The position numbers and the translations under genes were made by a program. Below are positions 52,096 through 64,000 of a DNA stretch of 64,000 nucleotides, in pieces. The notes beneath the pieces are model-generated. The model was not told where the DNA came from. It saw only the letters and a program-made list of their open reading frames with translations, and did not search any database. Source of the stretch: Pseudomonas nitroreducens TX1 (GTDB lineage Bacteria; Pseudomonadota; Gammaproteobacteria; Pseudomonadales; Pseudomonadaceae); the NCBI RefSeq assembly GCF_000313755.1, contig NZ_AMZB01000134.1, forward strand, positions 1-64,000, in the 5' to 3' direction. The stretch's first letter is position 1. The number at the start of each line of letters is the position of its first letter.

Positions 52096-53532
<1,437 letters not shown>

Positions 53533-53542
53533 GCTTCTTTGC

Positions 53543-54664
53543 TCATGGATGCAGCTCCGTCGCCTTGTTCGCCTGGCGCAGCACGAAGACGCGCCAGGCC
53601 ACGCCCTCGCGGATGAGGATGCGCGAGCAGTGGCTGTTGAAGGACTGGTAGTTGCCGAACTGGTCGGGCAGGTCGAGCACCTGCCAGGTGCGTTCGGGCA
53701 GCGGCATGCGGTTCAGCGTCGAGGCCAGCCCGGCCGCGCGGGTGATGCCGAAGGTCTGCTCGAAGGCCGCATTGCGCCATTGCGGTTGGGCCGCCTCGTC
53801 GATCACCAGCACGGCGTCGGGCACCGCGTCGAACACCCGGCGCAGCGCTTCGATGCGCTGCTCGGCGTCGTGCTGCATGCGCAGCTCCTGGCTGACGTCG
53901 CGCAGACTGCCCCACATGCGCAGCAGGCGGCCGTTGTGGATGCTGGCGCGCACGTCGTTCTCCACGTAGGCCGGCGAGCCGTCGTGACGACGATCCACCG
54001 ACAGCGCACCGTCGACGTGGAATTCCGCCTCGATCAGGCGCCGCACGAATTCTTCGTTGGCCGGGCTGCGCGGCCAGTACAGGCGCACCGGCTGCTCGCT
54101 GAAATCGACGTCGGCGGGCATCTCGTAGATGTTGGCCATGGCGCGGTTGCACATGCGCCAGTAGGAGCGGTTCTCGAACACCTGGCGGACGATCTCGTCG
54201 GGGGTCTCACGCACATCCACGGACTCGGCGAACTCGATGCACCAGTAGGCCACCCGTGCGCTGAAGAGCATCTGGCTCATCACTTCGTTGGCGCTCTGCA
54301 GTTCGCCCAGGCGGCGGCTGATCGGCCCCAGCGGCATCTTCACCAGGTGCAGGCGCGCCGGCTCGCCGTCGCGCCACTGCAGTACGCCGCTGGCGAGCAC
54401 TGGCAGCAGGCCGCCGTTGTGGCGGATCAGCGTCAGCTCCAGGTCCTGTACACGCTCGTCCGCCGGCGGGCTGGCGAACAGTTGCATCAGCGCATTCAGC
54501 GAGTCGGCGGTGTAGATGAGCTCGGCGGCCTGGCCATCGAGGGAGCCGGGCGCGTAGCCGAGCTGGTCGGTCTGTTCGGCGGAAACTTCGATGAAGCGTC
54601 CCTGGGACGTCAGGCTGTCGGACAGCAGCAGGCCCCTGTCCAGCAGCAGTTTCAGCGGGTCCAT
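53543..54664 (-). CDS. PAS-domain sensor protein without output domain
   Basis: A 373-residue protein built of PAS-like modules: the first about 10-105 (LTSQGRFIEVSAEQTDQLGY), a central region with the PAC-type VDRRHDGSPAYVENDVRA, and a third at about 275-373 (FDAVPDAVLVIDEAAQPQWR). No kinase, GGDEF, ATPase or DNA-binding domain follows. It probably senses a ligand or redox state and acts on the sigma-54 activator encoded 10 bases downstream. GGAGGG precedes the ATG at 54664. Ligand unknown. Confidence 0.72.
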   Translation of the reverse strand: MDPLKLLLDRGLLLSDSLTSQGRFIEVSAEQTDQLGYAPGSLDGQAAELIYTADSLNALMQLFASPPADERVQDLELTLIRHNGGLLPVLASGVLQWRDGEPARLHLVKMPLGPISRRLGELQSANEVMSQMLFSARVAYWCIEFAESVDVRETPDEIVRQVFENRSYWRMCNRAMANIYEMPADVDFSEQPVRLYWPRSPANEEFVRRLIEAEFHVDGALSVDRRHDGSPAYVENDVRASIHNGRLLRMWGSLRDVSQELRMQHDAEQRIEALRRVFDAVPDAVLVIDEAAQPQWRNAAFEQTFGITRAAGLASTLNRMPLPERTWQVLDLPDQFGNYQSFNSHCSRILIREGVAWRVFVLRQANKATELHP

Positions 54665-55026
54665 TTGTCCCTCCAAGGCAGATCTCCGATGCAAATTTCC
54701 AACAGGACGGTGCGGCCGCCAGGCGGCCCGCGGGATGAGCAAGGCATGTTGCATGCCAGCCGGAAACGCCCAGGCCCCGTGGGGTGGCGCGGAGGGGTGT
54801 ATGCAAAATCGCAGCACCCTGCGCATTCGCGCAGCGCATCGGCGCAGATTACCTGCTGCGCGATTGCAGCAGCGCGCCGGGCGATGGAAGGCGCGGCGAT
54901 TTCCGGCCAAATACTGGCCATTTGATAGCTTTTGAGTTCGTTTGAGCCGCTGTCGCTGCTAGGATGCGCGCGCGTTTCGTTCCCCGAGGCGCCCGCCCCA
55001 GAGCCCGTTCCCTACAAGAGGCCGCC
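54665..55026. other. Divergent promoter region between the PAS gene and the PilZ gene
   Basis: About 360 bases without a gene. No strong palindrome or -24/-12 element is evident. The stretch TTTGATAGCTTTTGAGTTCG near 54920 is AT-rich and may be part of the PilZ promoter. Confidence 0.5.
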
Positions 55027-55389
55027 ATGCGCAAGCACCGTCGTTTGACCTTCCGCCACATCGGCCAGATCAACGTGACCAACCGCCTGAGCGGCGACCC
55101 CATGGGGGTGGTCCTGGACGTCTCGATGGGCGGCCTGCGGCTGGTGACCGAGGAGCCGCTGGCGCCGGGCAGCTGCTACGACATGCGCCTGGAGATTCCG
55201 GTGCGCGAGGATCACACCCGTTCGGTGGATATCACTGCGATCTGCCAGTGGTCGAAGAAGGATGCCAAGAACGCGCGCTTCGAGCAGGGCTTCAAGCTGG
55301 ACCGACCGAGTGCGGCGTTTACCGAACTGGTGACGTCGATGTCGGTGAGTTTCAATCGCAGTCTGCTGGGGCGGGCGCGGTTGTCGTGA
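55027..55389 (+). CDS. PilZ-domain c-di-GMP-binding protein
   Basis: A 120-residue single-domain PilZ protein. Both parts of the c-di-GMP motif are present: an RxxxR-type run RKHRR near the N-terminus (residues 2-6) and DVSMGG at 31-36 matching D/NxSxxG. AAGAGG precedes the ATG at 55027; the frame upstream is not needed. It stands between the N-demethylase regulators and the flagellar operon, on the opposite strand to both. A link to flagellar motility is possible from position but not shown. Confidence 0.82.
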   Translation: MRKHRRLTFRHIGQINVTNRLSGDPMGVVLDVSMGGLRLVTEEPLAPGSCYDMRLEIPVREDHTRSVDITAICQWSKKDAKNARFEQGFKLDRPSAAFTELVTSMSVSFNRSLLGRARLS

Positions 55390-55577: not shown

Positions 55578-57674
55578 TTACCCCAACGTCCCCAATATCT
55601 GCACCCCCACCCGCTCCGGAATCTCGTTCTGCGACAGCACGTGCAACCCCGGGCTGAACACCCGTGCGTAACGCGCCAGCAGCGGCCGCAGCTGTGGCAT
55701 CACGGTGAGGATCGGCGGGTGGCCTTCCTTGCGCAGCTTTTCCTTCACTACCGGCATGCTGTGCTGCAGCTGGTTGAGCAGGCTGGGCTCCACCGGGATG
55801 TTGTCCAGGCTCACCGGGCCGGCCTGCTGGGCGATGCTCAGGGCGCCGAGCAGGGTGTTCTCCAGGGCGTTCTCCAGGACGAACACGGTCAGCTCGGGGC
55901 GGTCGCCGGCAATCGATGAGACGATGCTGCGGCGCAGCGCATAGCGCACGTCGGAGGCCAGCAGCACCGGGTCCTTGGTGGTCTCGCTGCCTTCGAGCAG
56001 GGCGCTGGCGATGGTGACGATGTCCTTCAGCGGCACTTCCTCCTGCAGCAGCTGGCGGAACACCCGGTGCTGCTGCGAATAGGTCAGTTGCGCCTTCAGC
56101 GATTCGGCGAGCTTGGGCGCCTGCAGGGTCAGGCGCTGCATCAGGTGCTCGACGTCGTCGTGCTTGAAGATGTCCGGCAGGTGCTCGCGTACCACCTTGT
56201 TCAGGTGCGTGGCGACCACGCTGGCGCAGTCGATCACCTGGTAGCCCAGGTTCAGCGCGCGGGACTTGTCCGCCGGGAGAATCCACACCACCTGCATGCG
56301 GTACGCCGGGTCGACGCCGAGGATGCCGTCGATCTCGCCGTAGAGTTCCGGCGAGGGAATCGCCATCAGCCGGTCGGCGTGGATTTCCGCGCCGTCGATG
56401 CGCTCGCCGTTGATGTGGATGGCGTACTGCGAGGCCTTCAGGCGCAGGCTGTCGCGGATCTGCACTTCCGGCAGGAGGAAGCCGAGGTTCTCCGAGAGCG
56501 TCTGGCGCACCCCGCGAATCCGCTGCGGCAGCGGCGCGCCGCTGGCCTCGTTGACCAGGCTGACCAGCTTGTAGCCCAGCGAGATCGACAGCCGCTCCAC
56601 CAGCGGGATGTCTTCCCAGCCCAGTTGCTGGGCGCGCTCCTGGTCCATGGCATGCGTCAGCGCCTGGGTCTGCTCCAGGGTCTGCGCCTCGATCGGCGGG
56701 CCGGCCAGCGACAGGCGCCAGGCAATGAAGGCCACCAGCGCGGCGAAGGCGAAGAACGCCACGTGCGGCATGCCCGGTACCAGGCCGAGCACCACGAGTA
56801 TGCCGGCGACGGTATACAGCAGTGACGGCGAGGCGAGCATCTGCTTGCGCACCAGGCTGGTGATTTCCGCCGACTCGTTGACCCGCGTGACGATGATCGC
56901 CGCCGCGGTGGACAGCAGCAGCGCCGGGATCTGCGCCACCAGGCCGTCGCCGATGGTCAGCAGGGCGTAGCGCTGGAAGGCTGCGCCCGCCGGCAGGTCG
57001 TAGACGAACACGCCGATGGCCAAGCCGCCGAACAGGTTGATCAGCAGGATCAGGATGCCGGCGATGGCATCGCCGCGGACGAACTTCGACGCACCATCCA
57101 TCGCGCCGTAGAAGTCGGCTTCCTTGGCCACTTCCGCACGGCGGCGCTTGGCTTCGTTCTGGTCGATCAGTCCGGCGTTGAGGTCGGCGTCGATGGCCAT
57201 CTGCTTGCCGGGCAGGGCGTCCAGGGTGAAGCGTGCGGTCACCTCGGAGATGCGCTCGCCACCCTTGGTGATGACCATGAAGTTGATGATCATCAGGATC
57301 ACGAAGACGATCAGGCCGACGATGAAGTTGCCGCCGATCACCACGTGGCCGAAGGCTTCGATCACCTTGCCCGCCGCGCCCGTGCCGGTGTGTCCGTCGA
57401 GCAGCACCACGCGGGTGGAGGCGACGTTCAGCGTCAGGCGCAGCAGCGTGGTGACCAGGATCACCGTGGGCAGCAGCGAGAAGTCCAGCGGGCTCTTGGA
57501 CGACACGCTGACCAGCAGCACCAGGATCGCCACCACGATGTTGAAGGTGAACAGGGCGTCCAGCACCAGCGGCGGCAACGGCAGGATGATCATCGAGAGG
57601 ATCGACAGGATGATCAGCGGGATGCCGATGCGGCCGCTCTGGAAGGTCGGCAATAGTGACTGCAATAGGCGCAT
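55578..57674 (-). CDS. flhA: Flagellar export gate protein FlhA (lateral system)
   Basis: A 698-residue export-gate subunit. About eight membrane helices fill residues 15-325; the cytoplasmic connector includes the conserved FHIPEP-family stretch KGGERISEVTARFTLDALPG (about 137-156). The C-terminal domain binds chaperone-substrate complexes. It is the last gene of the fliM-flhA operon, two bases after flhB. No flhF or fleN follows, unlike the polar Pseudomonas locus. Confidence 0.93.
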   Translation of the reverse strand: MRLLQSLLPTFQSGRIGIPLIILSILSMIILPLPPLVLDALFTFNIVVAILVLLVSVSSKSPLDFSLLPTVILVTTLLRLTLNVASTRVVLLDGHTGTGAAGKVIEAFGHVVIGGNFIVGLIVFVILMIINFMVITKGGERISEVTARFTLDALPGKQMAIDADLNAGLIDQNEAKRRRAEVAKEADFYGAMDGASKFVRGDAIAGILILLINLFGGLAIGVFVYDLPAGAAFQRYALLTIGDGLVAQIPALLLSTAAAIIVTRVNESAEITSLVRKQMLASPSLLYTVAGILVVLGLVPGMPHVAFFAFAALVAFIAWRLSLAGPPIEAQTLEQTQALTHAMDQERAQQLGWEDIPLVERLSISLGYKLVSLVNEASGAPLPQRIRGVRQTLSENLGFLLPEVQIRDSLRLKASQYAIHINGERIDGAEIHADRLMAIPSPELYGEIDGILGVDPAYRMQVVWILPADKSRALNLGYQVIDCASVVATHLNKVVREHLPDIFKHDDVEHLMQRLTLQAPKLAESLKAQLTYSQQHRVFRQLLQEEVPLKDIVTIASALLEGSETTKDPVLLASDVRYALRRSIVSSIAGDRPELTVFVLENALENTLLGALSIAQQAGPVSLDNIPVEPSLLNQLQHSMPVVKEKLRKEGHPPILTVMPQLRPLLARYARVFSPGLHVLSQNEIPERVGVQILGTLG

Positions 57675-57676
57675 GG

Positions 57677-58810
57677 TCAGACTCTGTTCAGCAGTTCTTC
57701 GGGAATGGGGACGTTGCGTATCAGTTCCGGCCGCTCACGGCGCCCGGAGCGCCAGGCCTTGAGCTGGAGGATGTAGGTCAGGACATGGGCCACGGCCTTG
57801 TACAGCTGCGCGGGAATCTGCTGGTTCACCTGGGTGGTGGCGTAGATGGCGCGGGCCAGCGGCGGCAGCTCGAGCACTTCCAGGTCGTGGGTCTTGGCCA
57901 GCGTGCGGATGTACAGCGCGGTCTCGTCCAGGCCCTTGGCGACCACGTAGGGGGCCTGGGCCTTCTTCGGGTCGTAGCGCAGCGCGACGGCAAAATGCAC
58001 CGGGTTGACGATCACCACGTCGGCGCTCCTGATGCTCTTGCTGATCTGCCGGTGCACCAGCTGGCGCTGCAACTGGCGGATGCGCGCCTTCACTTCCGGC
58101 CGGCCTTCCTGGTTCTTGTGCTCTTCCTTGCGCTCCTGCTTGGTCATGCGCAGCTTCTTCTTGAAGAAGAAGTACTGGATCGGGATATCGATGACCGAGA
58201 ACAGGATGAACACCACCAGCAGCGACAGGGTGATGTCGTAGAAGGTGCCGAAGGCGGCGGCGATGGCGCTGTGCACGTTGCTGCGCTGCAGTGCCAGCAG
58301 GCCGGGCAGGGCGCCGTGCAAATGGTAGACGGCGACGACGATGAGCACGGCGATCTTCAGCAGCGACTTGGCCAGCTCGGTCCAGTTCTGCAGGGAGAAT
58401 ATGCGCCCCAGCCCGGTGATCGGGTTGAGCTTGGACAGCCTGGGCATGAAGTTCTTGCTGGAGAAGATCCAGCCGCCGGGGATCATCGAGAACAGCACCA
58501 CCAGCAGCGGCGTGACCAGCAGCGGGAGCAGCGTGGTGATGAACAGCACCAGGTGATGGCCGAGCACCAGCGGCAGGTCGTCCAGGCCGATCTCGCTGTG
58601 CCTGAAGTCGATGAAGGACAGGGCGAAGCCTTGCTTCAGGCCGTCATAGAAATGCTCCACGCAGAACTTCAGCGCGACGAGCGTGGCCAGCAGCGAGAGG
58701 GTCGTGGAGAGGTCCTTGGAACGACTGACCTGGCCATCCTCGCGGCTCTTCCTGAGCTTCTGCTCGGAGGCCTCTTCCGTTTTCTCCTGGGCGCTGTGCT
58801 GGTCAGCCAT
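57677..58810 (-). CDS. flhB: Flagellar export switch protein FlhB (lateral system)
   Basis: A 377-residue protein with four membrane helices and a cytoplasmic domain that undergoes self-cleavage to change export specificity. The cleavage motif reads N269-P270-V271-H272 instead of the usual NPTH; Asn and Pro, between which cleavage occurs, are kept. The N-terminus (EKTEEASEQKLRKSREDGQV) and the end IPEELLNRV are typical. It overlaps fliR by eight bases. Confidence 0.92.
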   Translation of the reverse strand: MADQHSAQEKTEEASEQKLRKSREDGQVSRSKDLSTTLSLLATLVALKFCVEHFYDGLKQGFALSFIDFRHSEIGLDDLPLVLGHHLVLFITTLLPLLVTPLLVVLFSMIPGGWIFSSKNFMPRLSKLNPITGLGRIFSLQNWTELAKSLLKIAVLIVVAVYHLHGALPGLLALQRSNVHSAIAAAFGTFYDITLSLLVVFILFSVIDIPIQYFFFKKKLRMTKQERKEEHKNQEGRPEVKARIRQLQRQLVHRQISKSIRSADVVIVNPVHFAVALRYDPKKAQAPYVVAKGLDETALYIRTLAKTHDLEVLELPPLARAIYATTQVNQQIPAQLYKAVAHVLTYILQLKAWRSGRRERPELIRNVPIPEELLNRV

Positions 58811-59603
58811 GACGCCCCTCGCGGAAGATCACGCCGATGGCATCGAGCACCTGGCGGGTGAGCTTGAGGTAGTTCTCGGGGATGTCCGGCAGGGTCAGCC
58901 AGATGCACGCAAGACCGGCCAGCACCGCCATGGGAAAGCCCAGGGAGAACAGGTTGAGCGCCGGCGAGATGCGGTTGAGCAGGCCGAAGCAGAACTGCAC
59001 CAGGGTCATGCAGAACACCACCGGCAAGGTGATCAGCACCGCGGCGGAAAACACCCAGGCGAGGCTGCCGGCCACCGACGCCAGCCCCAGGTAATGCAGT
59101 CCGCTGCCCACCGGCCAGTGGACGAAGCTCTGGTAGAGGATGCTCACCACCAGCAGGTGACCATCGATGGAGAGGAACAGGAACACCAGCAGGATGAAGT
59201 ACAGCTGGTAGAGGATCGAGGACGACGACACGCCATTCATGGGGTCGTTGTACACCGCCATGCTCAGGCCCAGCTGGGTGGAGATCACGTCGCCCACCAG
59301 GGTGAACACGGTGAACACCAGCATCAGCGCAAGCCCCAGCATCAGCCCGAAGATCACCTGCTCCAGCGCCACCAGCAGGCCCTGCGCGGACAGTGGATCG
59401 ATGGCTGGCGGGCGCGGCAGCGCGGCGCCCAGGGCGACGGTCAACGCCAGCCCGAGGAGGATGCGCAGGCGCGCCGGGATGGCCTTGTGGCTGAAGATCG
59501 GCGCCAGCGCGAACACCGCCATGATCCGGCAGAAGGGCCACCACCAGGCCTGCAGCGCTTGCAGGTAGTCGAAGGCCTGCAGGAGGGATGCGCCTTGCTG
59601 CAT
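58803..59603 (-). CDS. fliR: Flagellar export protein FliR (lateral system)
   Basis: A 266-residue membrane protein with about six helices, part of the FliPQR export pore. The motif LGDVISTQLGLSMA-like VGDVISTQLGLSMAVYNDPM (about 103-122) is characteristic of FliR. It is four bases after fliQ and overlaps flhB, as expected for co-translated export genes. Confidence 0.92.
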   Translation of the reverse strand: MQQGASLLQAFDYLQALQAWWWPFCRIMAVFALAPIFSHKAIPARLRILLGLALTVALGAALPRPPAIDPLSAQGLLVALEQVIFGLMLGLALMLVFTVFTLVGDVISTQLGLSMAVYNDPMNGVSSSSILYQLYFILLVFLFLSIDGHLLVVSILYQSFVHWPVGSGLHYLGLASVAGSLAWVFSAAVLITLPVVFCMTLVQFCFGLLNRISPALNLFSLGFPMAVLAGLACIWLTLPDIPENYLKLTRQVLDAIGVIFREGRHG

Positions 59604-59607
59604 GGCA

Positions 59608-59880
59608 TCAGCCGACCAGGCGGCCTGCCTGGTGGAACGACTCGATGAACAGCTCGGACAGGGTGCGCAGGATCCAGTGGCCGGCGAACACCAGCATCCC
59701 CAGGGTGATCAGCAGGCGCGGCAGGAAGCTGAGCATCTGCTCGTTGATCTGCGTGGCAGCCTGGAAAATGCTCACCAGCAGGCCGCCGATCAGGCTCGGC
59801 AGGATCAGTACGCAGACGATCAGCGCGGTGATGTGCACGGCGTTGGAAACGATATCGACGGCGCTTTCCGGCGTAAGCAT
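59608..59880 (-). CDS. fliQ: Flagellar export protein FliQ (lateral system)
   Basis: A 90-residue protein with two membrane helices, a component of the export pore. The start MLTPESAVDIVSNAV and the middle GLLVSIFQAATQINEQMLSF are diagnostic. AGGAG lies seven bases before the ATG at 59880; the longer frame is rejected. Ten bases after fliP. Confidence 0.92.
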   Translation of the reverse strand: MLTPESAVDIVSNAVHITALIVCVLILPSLIGGLLVSIFQAATQINEQMLSFLPRLLITLGMLVFAGHWILRTLSELFIESFHQAGRLVG

Positions 59881-59890
59881 CGCAGGGCTC

Positions 59891-60658
59891 CTAGAACGGC
59901 TGCACACTGCTGGTCAGCGTGCCCATCATCAGGGCCCAGCCGTCCACCAGCACGAAGATCATCAGCTTGAACGGCAGCGAGATCATCATTGGCGAGAGCA
60001 TCATCATGCCCATCGCCATGAGCACACTGGCCACCACCAGGTCGATCACCAGGAATGGGATGAAGATCATGAAGCCCAGCTGGAACGCCGTCTTCAGCTC
60101 GCTGAGCACGAACGACGGCAGCAGCAGGGAGAAGTCCAGGTCTTCCAGTTTCTCCGGCACGGTTTCGCCGGCCAGGCTGACCATGGTTTCCAGCGAGGTG
60201 CGGTTGGTCTGCGCCAGCATGAAGCGGCTCAGGGTCTGCTTGGCGCGGCCCAGGCCGTCCTCCAGGCTGATCTGGTCGGCCTCGAAGGGCTGGTAGGCAT
60301 TGCTGTAGATGTCCTGCCAGACCGGGCGCATCACCATCAGCGTCATGATCAGCGCGATACCCACCAGCACATTGTTCGGCGGGCTCTGCTGCAGGCCGAT
60401 GGCCTGGCGCAGGATGGCGAGCACGATGACGAAGCGGGTGAAGCAGGTCATCAGCATGAGCATGGCGGGCAGGAAGCCCAGCAGCGTCATGACGATGAGG
60501 ATCTGCAGCTTGACGCTGAAGGCCTGGCCGTCCGCCGTGTCGTGCAGGTTGAACAGCGTGACCTCGCCGCCGGCCGCCTGCGCGTGGAGCGGGCAGAGCG
60601 CGGTGATGAGCAGGCCAAGTGCGGCCAGCGATCTGCCGGTCAGGAAGCGGTGCAGCAT
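59891..60658 (-). CDS. fliP: Flagellar export protein FliP (lateral system)
   Basis: A 255-residue protein with a cleavable signal peptide (about 1-28) and four membrane helices, forming the core of the export pore. Motifs are MTCFTRFVIVLAILRQAIGL and PFKLMIFVLVDGW near the end. The ATG at 60658 is two bases after the fliN stop. No fliO gene precedes it, a difference from the polar Pseudomonas system. Confidence 0.93.
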   Translation of the reverse strand: MLHRFLTGRSLAALGLLITALCPLHAQAAGGEVTLFNLHDTADGQAFSVKLQILIVMTLLGFLPAMLMLMTCFTRFVIVLAILRQAIGLQQSPPNNVLVGIALIMTLMVMRPVWQDIYSNAYQPFEADQISLEDGLGRAKQTLSRFMLAQTNRTSLETMVSLAGETVPEKLEDLDFSLLLPSFVLSELKTAFQLGFMIFIPFLVIDLVVASVLMAMGMMMLSPMMISLPFKLMIFVLVDGWALMMGTLTSSVQPF

Positions 60659-60660
60659 CT

Positions 60661-61032
60661 TCAGGCCGTCAGGGCGTCGAGGCTGGCGCCGCACAGCTCG
60701 AGCACGCGCAGGCCGTAGTTGCCGTTCATCACGACCACCTCGGCCTTGGCGAACAGTGCGCCATTGACCTTCACGTCCAGCGGCTCGCCGGCGAGCTTGT
60801 CGAGGATGATCACGCTGTTGGCATCGACGTCCATCAGTTCCTTCAGGGAGATTTCCACCGAGGCGACTTCCAGGGTGACGTTCACCGGGATCTTGCCGAA
60901 GAAAGCCAGGTCCTGCTGCGGCAGCGGCGCGCGTGCAGGCTCGGCGGGGATGTCGGTGACGTCCTGGGTGAGGCCCAGGTCGCCGTCGTTGATCAGCGAC
61001 TCGAACTCGGAGTCGGAGAGAGAACCGGTCAT
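60661..61032 (-). CDS. fliN: Flagellar motor switch protein FliN (lateral system)
   Basis: A 123-residue C-ring protein with the SpoA domain in the last about 75 residues (VNVTLEVASVEISLKELMDV, NGNYGLRVLEL). The N-terminus contains LSDSEFESLI at residues 5-14, which looks like the CheY-P-binding EIDALL-type peptide usually found at the start of FliM. The ATG at 61032 overlaps the fliM stop (ATGA). This is discussed as a finding. Confidence 0.9.
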   Translation of the reverse strand: MTGSLSDSEFESLINDGDLGLTQDVTDIPAEPARAPLPQQDLAFFGKIPVNVTLEVASVEISLKELMDVDANSVIILDKLAGEPLDVKVNGALFAKAEVVVMNGNYGLRVLELCGASLDALTA

Positions 61033-61868
61033 GGGTTTTTCACGCTTTCCAGGGAGGAGAGGAAGAGGGTGCCGTCGTCTTCGAAGATGGCGCCGCGGAA
61101 CAGCTTCTGCTGGTTGACCCGCACTTCGACGCGCTCCAGCGGGCGGATGGTCAGCACGTCGCCGGGCTCCAGGGCCAGCACCTGCGACAGCGGCAGGCGC
61201 GCGGCGGCGACCACGCAGTCCAGGCGCAGCGGCAGGTGCTTGATGTGCTCCACCGGGTTGCCGGTCAGGCGCGGCGGCGGAGGGCCGGCGAGGCGGCGGG
61301 TCAGTTCGTCCGCCAGCGGGTTGTCCAGGTAGAGGTAGAGCGAGGAGCGCTCGCCGGTCAGGTGGCTGACGTAGCTGAACTCGGCCACGTACTCCCACTG
61401 CACCTCTTCATAGGTGGGGTCGATCTGCTGCAGTCGGCCCACCGATTCGCCCATCAGCAGGGCGCGGCCGAACAGGTCCACCACGTCCAGGCCGAGGCGG
61501 TCGAGCATGCGCTGCTCGGAACTGCTGATCGGCGGCGTGTCGCGATTGGCGACCACGGTACCGCCGTAATAGCACTCGATGACTTCGGTGAGCAGGGCAC
61601 GGTCCATGGCGAAACCGAACTTGCCCAGGGGCGAATCGAATAAACATTCCAGTTCACGGGGAAGTTCCTCGTGAACGGTCAGGTTGTTCAGCTCGAGATT
61701 GATTCGATAATGCCGCAGGAAATAGTCGCTGATGATTCGCGGATATTTTCCGGAGATCTCTTTGATGTACTGCGGGATCTTGTGATAATGCCGGCCGAGT
61801 TTCTGCGGTTTCAGTCGAATCAGACTGTCGGCGGGCACGCCATGGTGGACTTTTGATTTACCAGTCAT
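61029..61868 (-). CDS. fliM: Flagellar motor switch protein FliM (lateral system)
   Basis: A protein of about 279 residues that with FliN forms the C-ring. The middle domain (FGFAMDRALLTEVIECYYGG, VVDLFGRALL) and the C-terminal SpoA domain are present. The N-terminus (MTGKSKVHHGVPADSLIRLK) lacks the LSQDEIDALL peptide that binds phosphorylated CheY in usual FliM. An upstream ATG at 61928 would add 20 residues and also gives no such peptide; neither start has a strong ribosome site. First gene of the fliMNPQR-flhBA operon. Confidence 0.88.
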   Translation of the reverse strand: MTGKSKVHHGVPADSLIRLKPQKLGRHYHKIPQYIKEISGKYPRIISDYFLRHYRINLELNNLTVHEELPRELECLFDSPLGKFGFAMDRALLTEVIECYYGGTVVANRDTPPISSSEQRMLDRLGLDVVDLFGRALLMGESVGRLQQIDPTYEEVQWEYVAEFSYVSHLTGERSSLYLYLDNPLADELTRRLAGPPPPRLTGNPVEHIKHLPLRLDCVVAAARLPLSQVLALEPGDVLTIRPLERVEVRVNQQKLFRGAIFEDDGTLFLSSLESVKNP

Positions 61869-62040
61869 GCTCAGCGTCGTACTTCCAGGTTCGATCTGCC
61901 ATCTGCCCAAGGACACGGGAGGTGTCATGACCGCCGGGATCGGCTGATCGTTGCTCGCGGCATGCTCTGTCTGTCAGGAAGCCCGTGACTGCTGCGTCGC
62001 AGGCTGCTGAAGTGGCGCAATGATAGCGTTCTGAGGTCGC

Positions 62041-62110
62041 CCGATTAAATCAATAGATATCAAATGCTGTTTTTGACGGAACTTTTTGTCTATTGATTTA
62101 AATTAATCGG
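62041..62110. promoter_or_regulatory. Long inverted repeat in the fliM/lafK divergent promoter
   Basis: CCGATTAAATCAATAGA (62041-62057) recurs inverted as TCTATTGATTTAAATTAATCGG (62089-62110); the arms are the same except for a five-base insertion, and the inner 11 bases AAATCAATAGA/TCTATTGATTT match perfectly. The core between is AT-rich and includes a TTGACG box. It lies between two divergent flagellar operons and is a strong candidate operator. Confidence 0.6.
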
Positions 62111-62263
62111 CGCGAAGCTATGGCGAAGTGCTGGCACTTGTTAGTGTGGGTGGGTTAGTTACAGGTTGCAGCACTTCAATCATGACGAAGTTGTTGCAAT
62201 GCCACCCGTGAGAGAGCCCTTCCCTGAAGAAGTTCCGCAATCGCCGATGGAAAGATTCGGCCG

Positions 62264-63721
<1,458 letters not shown>

Positions 63722-63744
63722 TTTCGTTTCCGCAGGGGACTTCC

Positions 63745-64000
63745 ATGAGTTCGATCATGCAGGTGCAGCAGGACATGCTGGACCGGATGAACCGTTACGC
63801 CGACCTCGCCAGTGGCCCGGCCGTGCGGCCCGCCGCGCAGCTCGCCGGCAATACGCCGACGCAGGGCATCGGCGCCAGCTTCGAGCAGGCGCTGCGTTCG
63901 GTGGACGCCGAGCAGCACAAGTCCAGCGCCGCCATGGCCGCGGTGGACAGCGGCCAGAGCGACGACCTGGTCGGCGCCATGATCCAGAGCCAGAAGGCCA
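63745..64000 (+). CDS. fliE: Flagellar hook-basal body protein FliE (lateral system, partial)
   Basis: The window ends inside this gene after 85 residues. The protein begins MSSIMQVQQDMLDRM and contains ASFEQALRSVDAEQHKSSAA and DDLVGAMIQSQKA, matching the FliE pattern in which a conserved Gln-Lys-Ala follows the VmiaxQ stretch. FliE joins the MS ring to the rod. It starts 23 bases after lafK and probably heads a fliEFGHIJ operon outside the window. Confidence 0.85.
   Translation, partial: MSSIMQVQQDMLDRMNRYADLASGPAVRPAAQLAGNTPTQGIGASFEQALRSVDAEQHKSSAAMAAVDSGQSDDLVGAMIQSQKA

Follow-up and report, generated by a model that had tools for sequence, protein, structure and literature searches.

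Lateral flagella of Pseudomonas stutzeri were seen by microscopy decades ago. A lateral flagellin of that species is named in a comparison (PMC5773237), and lateral flagella are named in Pseudomonas sp. M1, where LafA and other lateral proteins were measured by proteomics (PMC13111069). The lateral kind is thus already known in Pseudomonas; as far as the accessible parts of these accounts go, they describe neither the anatomy of the locus nor its regulator, distribution or promoter. A review of Pseudomonas flagella covers, in its accessible part, the FleQ type and the P. fluorescens F113 exception and no lateral type (PMC8036289). The second flagellum of F113 is FlhDC-controlled and has its nearest relatives in Azotobacter (PMC5031763, PMC8036289). 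Outside the genus, the lateral system of Vibrio parahaemolyticus is wired through LafK, RpoN and FliAL (PMC8630636), and Escherichia coli has Flag-2. The subject here is the window, a stretch of 64,000 nucleotides (bases 1–64000 of contig C134, which has 215,849 bases in a genome of 6.69 Mb). Its segment 55578–64000 is one end of a flagellar gene set whose other end lies near 99.1 kb on the contig. Judged from sequence, this set is very probably a complete second flagellar system of the lateral (Vibrio LafK/E. coli Flag-2) type in a Pseudomonas near P. nitroreducens and P. nicosulfuronedens, and the lateral flagella of Pseudomonas sp. M1 and P. stutzeri are very likely the same system. Among named organisms, P. 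nitroreducens 381H (FliM 99% identical) and P. nicosulfuronedens, which has the nearest FlhA in the tree, are close relatives.

An earlier note on this DNA, made from the letters alone, had proposed a lateral-type second flagellum on the basis of a tightly packed gene run, and its reading of the run holds up. On the minus strand lie flhA for the export gate (55578–57674), flhB (57677–58810; TIGR00328 above cut-off), fliR (58803–59603; TIGR01400 above cut-off), fliQ (59608–59880; TIGR01402 79.8 bits, slightly below the cut-off of 88.9, and 54–56% identical to lateral FliQ), fliP (59891–60694; TIGR01103 above cut-off, with a listed GTG start and an ATG further inside), fliN (60661–61032; Pfam FliMN_C 70 bits) and a diverged fliM (61029–61868; Pfam FliMN_C 41.9 bits), with intergenic gaps of 2, −8, 4, 10, −34 and −4 bases from flhA to fliM. 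Across a promoter region of 395 bp (61869–62263), the run is divergent from a LafK-like sigma-54 activator (62264–63721, plus strand; Pfam Sigma54_activat 220.8 bits), which is followed by fliE (63745–64000, plus strand, being the 5' part in the window; the gene ends at contig base 64080 and the full gene scores 72.2 bits for Pfam FliE). As the note had also observed, neither fliO nor fliL is in the run; fliL is placed elsewhere in the lateral set. In the Vibrio laf system the sigma-54 activator likewise stands beside fliE and divergent from fliM, and the system has its own sigma-28.

The arrangement known from polar Pseudomonas loci, with fliL and fliO inside fliMNPQR, flhF-fleN after flhA and fleQ-fleSR before fliE, is present elsewhere in the genome, on contig C123, and not in the window. 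This separate locus follows the usual Pseudomonas order and holds fleQ, fleSR, fliEFGHIJ, fliKLMNOPQR, flhB, flhA, flhF, fleN, fliA and che genes, the names being mostly assigned by gene order and appearance and not by family models. The two FlhA genes of the genome encode proteins that are 51% identical to each other; identity between lateral and polar partners is 31% for FliG, 22% for MotA and 39% for FliA, and the lateral FliM has no match at 1e-3 among the polar proteins of its own genome. In an FlhA tree of 42 rows, the lateral rows were split from the polar and FlhDC-type rows at 100/100 by a branch of length 1.16. The sole exception is the plasmid FlhA of Vibrio breoganii (L221), which was labelled FlhDC-type in the analysis and groups on a very long branch with the Vibrio lateral FlhA proteins, beside V. 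campbellii; that label was ill-chosen, and through it the lateral group needs two changes in the tree. The FliP tree, with only two non-lateral rows, gave the same split, with the lateral group supported at 100/99. The two outcomes that the earlier note had named as refuting its proposal, a genome with no other flagellar locus and trees with these FlhA and FliP proteins among the polar Pseudomonas sequences, were both checked and did not occur. Three FliP hits and one LafK hit carry a stop; hits of this sort were meant to be passed over for the FliP tree, which lost none of its chosen rows on that account, and the LafK tree was built without a stop filter. A rearranged ordinary polar locus would account for genes that are all flagellar and sigma-54 linked, yet with an ordinary polar locus elsewhere in the genome and the two trees separating the sets, this explanation is ruled out and keeps practically no probability.

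The second flagellum of P. fluorescens F113 offers another way to explain a complete second set in a Pseudomonas (PMC5031763), and it resembles the present locus in being an island. FlhD was not found in this genome by a search that was positive in the E. coli control and that did not extend to FlhC, and the locus is therefore not taken to be of the F113 type. Further, FlhD occurs in 11 of 398 genomes of the family, and none of these is among the 84 that match the lateral FliM, in keeping with the contrast that the earlier note had drawn. The FlhA of the F113 type lies on a different branch, as judged from FlhD-bearing genomes and not from F113 itself: one such genome (G353) contributes its second FlhA and three others their only one, and all four group with those of E. 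coli K-12 and Cupriavidus. An FlhDC-controlled locus is likewise ruled out by the search for FlhD and by the FlhA tree, the chance of one being negligible.

The gene set continues well past the right-hand end of the window. On contig C134, fliE is followed by fliFGHIJ (64090–69274), flgM (from 69358), flgN (from 69669), fliD (from 70459), fliS, fliT, fliK and fliL, a second fliA (from 74207), motA (from 74982) and motB (75851–77194). A winged-helix-turn-helix (winged-HTH) regulator gene (77676–78569) and then fliC (78805–79644) lie on the strand opposite to fliE-motB. After an unrelated stretch (79965–87001) come flgA on the minus strand, flgB to flgL (88233–97909) and a LafW-like gene (98030–99076), LafW being, as we take it, the name for the hook-associated gene after flgL. 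The modules are those of E. coli Flag-2, and the two gene lists hardly differ: both have fliDSTKL-fliA-motAB, a winged-HTH gene next to lafA and, following flgL, a LafW-like gene. Matches to Flag-2 at 1e-3 or better were found for 37 of the 39 lateral genes, flgM and fliT being the two without, and identity is 63% for FlhA, 69% at most (FliI), 64% for MotA, 50% for FliA and 26% for FliM. The V. campbellii lateral system is similarly close (FlhA 63%, flagellin 56%). All gene names are backed by Pfam, NCBIfam or Flag-2 matches except fliT, which has none of these and is named from position; the NCBIfam scores of FlhA, FliQ, FliM and the fliE part are below their own cut-offs. The set has its own sigma-28 (Pfam sigma-70 regions) and FlgM (Pfam FlgM). 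It differs from Flag-2 in having flgMN behind fliJ, an attached PilZ gene and a host that also keeps a polar set. It also differs in FlgJ (94571–95608), whose rod-binding domain is fused to an SLT transglycosylase domain here, whereas a short rod-binding protein is annotated in E. coli. As a separate observation, alternating proline and glutamine make up roughly the last 111 residues of the lateral MotB, which is 447 aa long, against 351, 332, 332 and 343 aa in relatives where this run is short or missing; the run may be a repeat expansion or an assembly error.

Taken by its sequence, then, the set is full and unbroken, of lateral ancestry and separate from the polar set. It could still be silent or decaying and make no flagellum, as with what is left of Flag-2 in E. 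coli K-12, and in the E. coli record that served for comparison no lafK is annotated and no full-length open frame for it was seen. Against decay speak the translations, which show no internal stop in any lateral gene translated, the retention of the lateral FliM in 18 of the genus's 25 genomes, counting this one, and the conserved promoters described below. LafA, MotA, FlgE and other lateral proteins are also among those measured in Pseudomonas sp. M1 (PMC13111069). We regard a remnant as quite improbable.

The regulator of the set was identified by the earlier note as LafK. The activator has AAA+ and Fis-type HTH domains and no Pfam receiver-domain match; its N-terminal part is receiver-like in an AlphaFold model, with a receiver-like order of strands and helices at a pLDDT of 80–93 over residues 41–150, the model as a whole being of middling confidence (pLDDT 69.5). 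Foldseek gave NtrX and NtrC1 as its best matches; both can be aligned along the whole protein but superpose poorly (TM about 0.4). In an alignment with FleR, the position that we take to be that of the phospho-acceptor aspartate lacks this residue, as it does in V. campbellii LafK, and control by phosphorylation is for this reason unlikely. Among the proteins compared from outside the branch, V. campbellii LafK is the best match (54% over 371 residues, 378 bits), with FleR at 50%; a piece of the E. coli counterpart is 60% identical over 180 residues.

Two kinds of putative promoter accompany these regulators. A sigma-54 site of 10/12 or better is found before fliD in 48 of 51 loci and in none of 51 shuffled ones, and here it lies 43 bases before the gene. 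The site before flgB is weaker, at 9/12 in this genome and at 10/12 or better in four of nine loci. Apparent GCCGAT sites near lafK, which occur mainly in this species group, gave no lead. The second kind, a non-canonical sigma-28-type element (YTTAAK-N15-GTCGCC), was noticed in the regions upstream of fliC. It has three exact matches in the genome, all in the lateral locus, before flgM (69325), fliC (79727, minus strand) and flgK (95489), and 11/12 matches before fliD (70258) and at 106269, outside the lateral set. At 11/12 or better the element precedes flgM in 67 of 68 loci, flgK in 8 of 8, fliC in 11 of 12, fliD in 43 of 51, fliM in 49 of 77 and pilZ in 33 of 59, with no match in the shuffled controls; a count of 73/74 for flgN reflects the flgM site, flgL gave 1/8 and all other genes tabulated gave zero. 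Over 88 loci there are 129 exact matches at spacer 15 against 0–2 in shuffles, 4 at spacer 16 and none at 9–14 or 17–21, while the reversed pattern gave 3 and scrambled boxes 0–2. The polar fliC has a perfect canonical TAAA-N15-GCCGATAA site, and no such site of 11/12 or more was found in the lateral stretch. In the V. campbellii stretch the element occurs at 11/12 or better before fliD, inside motA and once far off, and not before fliC.

These patterns suggest an order of events. A signal would turn on the divergent operons fliMNPQRflhBA and lafK-fliEFGHIJ, and LafK with RpoN would activate fliDSTKL-fliA-motAB through the sigma-54 site before fliD and flgB-L through the weaker one. On completion of the hook, the lateral FlgM would be exported, and the lateral sigma-28 would then read YTTAAK-N15-GTCGCC before flgMN, fliC, flgKL and fliD. 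The polar FliA would read its usual TAAA-N15-GCCGATAA, so that the two programmes would be separated at the promoter. More generally, where Pseudomonadaceae have two flagella, the sigma-28 promoters of the two sets probably follow alphabets that do not overlap: polar genes would carry TAAA-N15-GCCGATAA and lateral genes TTTAAG-N15-GTCGCC. Alternatively, a different regulator, for example the winged-HTH protein, could act at the lateral element, given that the element is unlike the canonical −10 and that a winged-HTH gene adjoins fliC in all 11 fully mapped loci. This we consider doubtful, as the element has a two-box form, a fixed 15-base spacer and a position 57–68 bases before fliC, its targets are presumably the class III genes, and the lateral sigma-28 differs from the polar FliA in the stretch taken for region 2.4.

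Several observations weigh against this account of LafK and the promoters. The tree does not separate LafK orthology from kinship with FleR (all-LafK grouping, AU p 0.322); the name LafK is given for the position between fliM and fliE and for the best similarity. No sigma-54 site of 10/12 or better was found before lafK or fliM, in the 395-bp region between them, and sigma-54-like sites are not enriched across the locus (28 against 32.5 shuffled). Because the element was derived from fliC upstream regions, this genome's included, fliC matches by construction, and no element of 11/12 or better precedes pilZ or fliM in this genome. Of 71 genome-wide matches in 16 lateral-bearing genomes, 57 fall within lateral loci (fliC included) and 14 outside; those of one genome (G008) were assigned by distance from fliM alone, and another (G671) was kept separate from the sums. 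Ten genomes without a lateral set have six matches in total. Further, the reversed pattern is about as frequent genome-wide, with 9 matches against 3 here and 62 against 71 in the 16 genomes. It is therefore the placement of the element, and not its number, that carries its case.

Placement was informative where the locus is split. In four genomes (G223, G293, G235 and G330) the fliD-to-fliC part is missing near fliM, and element matches pointed to detached parts: each genome has one or two stretches with all or much of the fliD-to-fliC part, those of G223 and G330 also holding the flg part. Among the matches outside known loci, the clustered ones and both of G330 were inspected; the second G330 stretch, picked by a match, and an adjacent G293 stretch without a match held no lateral gene. 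In one stretch of G235 (L274, G235:C1:225000–244999), three copies of the element lie about 1 kb apart near fliC, where there are possibly tandem lateral flagellin genes.

The lateral FliM is strongly diverged, with an NCBIfam score of 36.8 bits against a cut-off of 219.6 and only its C-terminal domain recognised. Its start is most likely the ATG at 61868, giving 279 aa, because conservation among 11 aligned homologues begins there and a TGA vanishes in this shorter reading. A broken fliM in relatives was rejected on the same ground, the TGA being present in two of them under the longer reading only. Comparison of the N-termini shows that the lateral FliM is without the EIDALL of the genome's own polar FliM, which we take to be the CheY-binding motif, and the only FlhF above cut-off in the genome is at the polar locus. 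The motor is accordingly predicted to be non-chemotactic and not placed at the pole. It would be CheY-blind, run on its own MotAB, of which MotA is closer to that of Flag-2 than to the polar one, and probably be braked by PilZ. Gammaproteobacterial lateral motors have been described as non-chemotactic (PMC8042155).

The pilZ gene (54964–55389, plus strand; Pfam PilZ 32.8 bits, cut-off 22.5) adjoins flhA. A match to it adjoins flhA in 13 of 18 mapped genomes at 31–100% identity, two of these having a stop in the matched stretch; in four of the five remaining genomes the fetched stretch stops in or at flhA. As the gene belongs to the lateral locus in many relatives, its product is likely a c-di-GMP effector of the lateral flagellum. 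Beyond it (52096–54910), the space from gbcAB to the lateral locus holds a PAS/sigma-54 regulator and a PAS protein. Both are assigned to the gbc side, since they are also present in the five genomes inspected that have no lateral set at this site.

The lateral arrangement that the earlier note had likened to Vibrio and Aeromonas is right in lineage and in the position of LafK; it is neither new to Pseudomonas nor rare, being widespread in the family. A match to the lateral FliM was found in 84 of 398 family genomes, weakly in three and at 50% identity or more in 81, which span 8 of 19 genera. A class-wide search gave 12 further genomes out of 369, all weak matches, and says nothing on absence because even the Flag-2 FliM is only 26% identical. 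Scanning named genomes yielded 68 loci, including P. citronellolis, P. indica, P. thermotolerans, P. mendocina and many Stutzerimonas stutzeri, as well as Cellvibrio mixtus, a Saccharophagus and the betaproteobacterium Parazoarcus communis. The last (L126) carries a set of the Pseudomonadaceae kind (FlhA 75%, FliM 54%) in which flgM, fliD and fliM are likewise preceded by the sigma-28-type element, and likely acquired this set by transfer. In a check of 24 genomes, all 15 family genomes with a lateral FliM have two FlhA genes, as does one from another family (G671), and four genomes of the genus without a lateral FliM have one.

Of the 18 mapped genomes, 11 show the whole set within the fetched stretches and seven are partly covered or split. 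Nine of the 11 have the gene order seen here, and two (G018 and G024) have a part inverted. The stretch between fliC and flgA encodes non-flagellar functions (a CDP-alcohol transferase, an acyltransferase, a cytidylyltransferase, a methyltransferase/hydrolase and an ATP-grasp protein). In two genomes of the genus without the set (G021 and G022), this site is free of flagellar genes: next to the sigma-54/PAS genes by gbcAB come genes of the 79965–85766 stretch, and after these the right-hand neighbours. Three genes of the 79965–87001 stretch were tested and are present at this empty site. Since its genes occupy the same site there, the 79965–85766 stretch is judged to be an older resident, inverted here, with flagellar genes on both sides. 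Two further genomes have the gbcAB site without flagellar genes and the lateral set 2.3 Mb away (G005) or on another contig (G010), with a lateral FlhA 84–85% identical to that of this genome. Two separate arrivals of the set in the genus fit best, and transposition with fast divergence is a possible alternative.

The sigma-54 site before fliD and the GTCGCC promoter code were not found in the open-access full-text literature, and the promoter wiring may therefore be new. If the reading of two promoter alphabets is true, each pair of sigma-28 and FlgM would read its own genes only, in many species the element would also subject the PilZ brake to lateral control, and the lateral code would be old in this branch, having been retained through split, move or re-insertion of the set. 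About one-fifth of the surveyed family genomes (81 of 398) carry this further, lateral type with its own regulators. The set is a possible genetic basis for surface motility in environmental pseudomonads, and the separation of two flagellar assembly programmes in one cell would become addressable at the level of the promoter.

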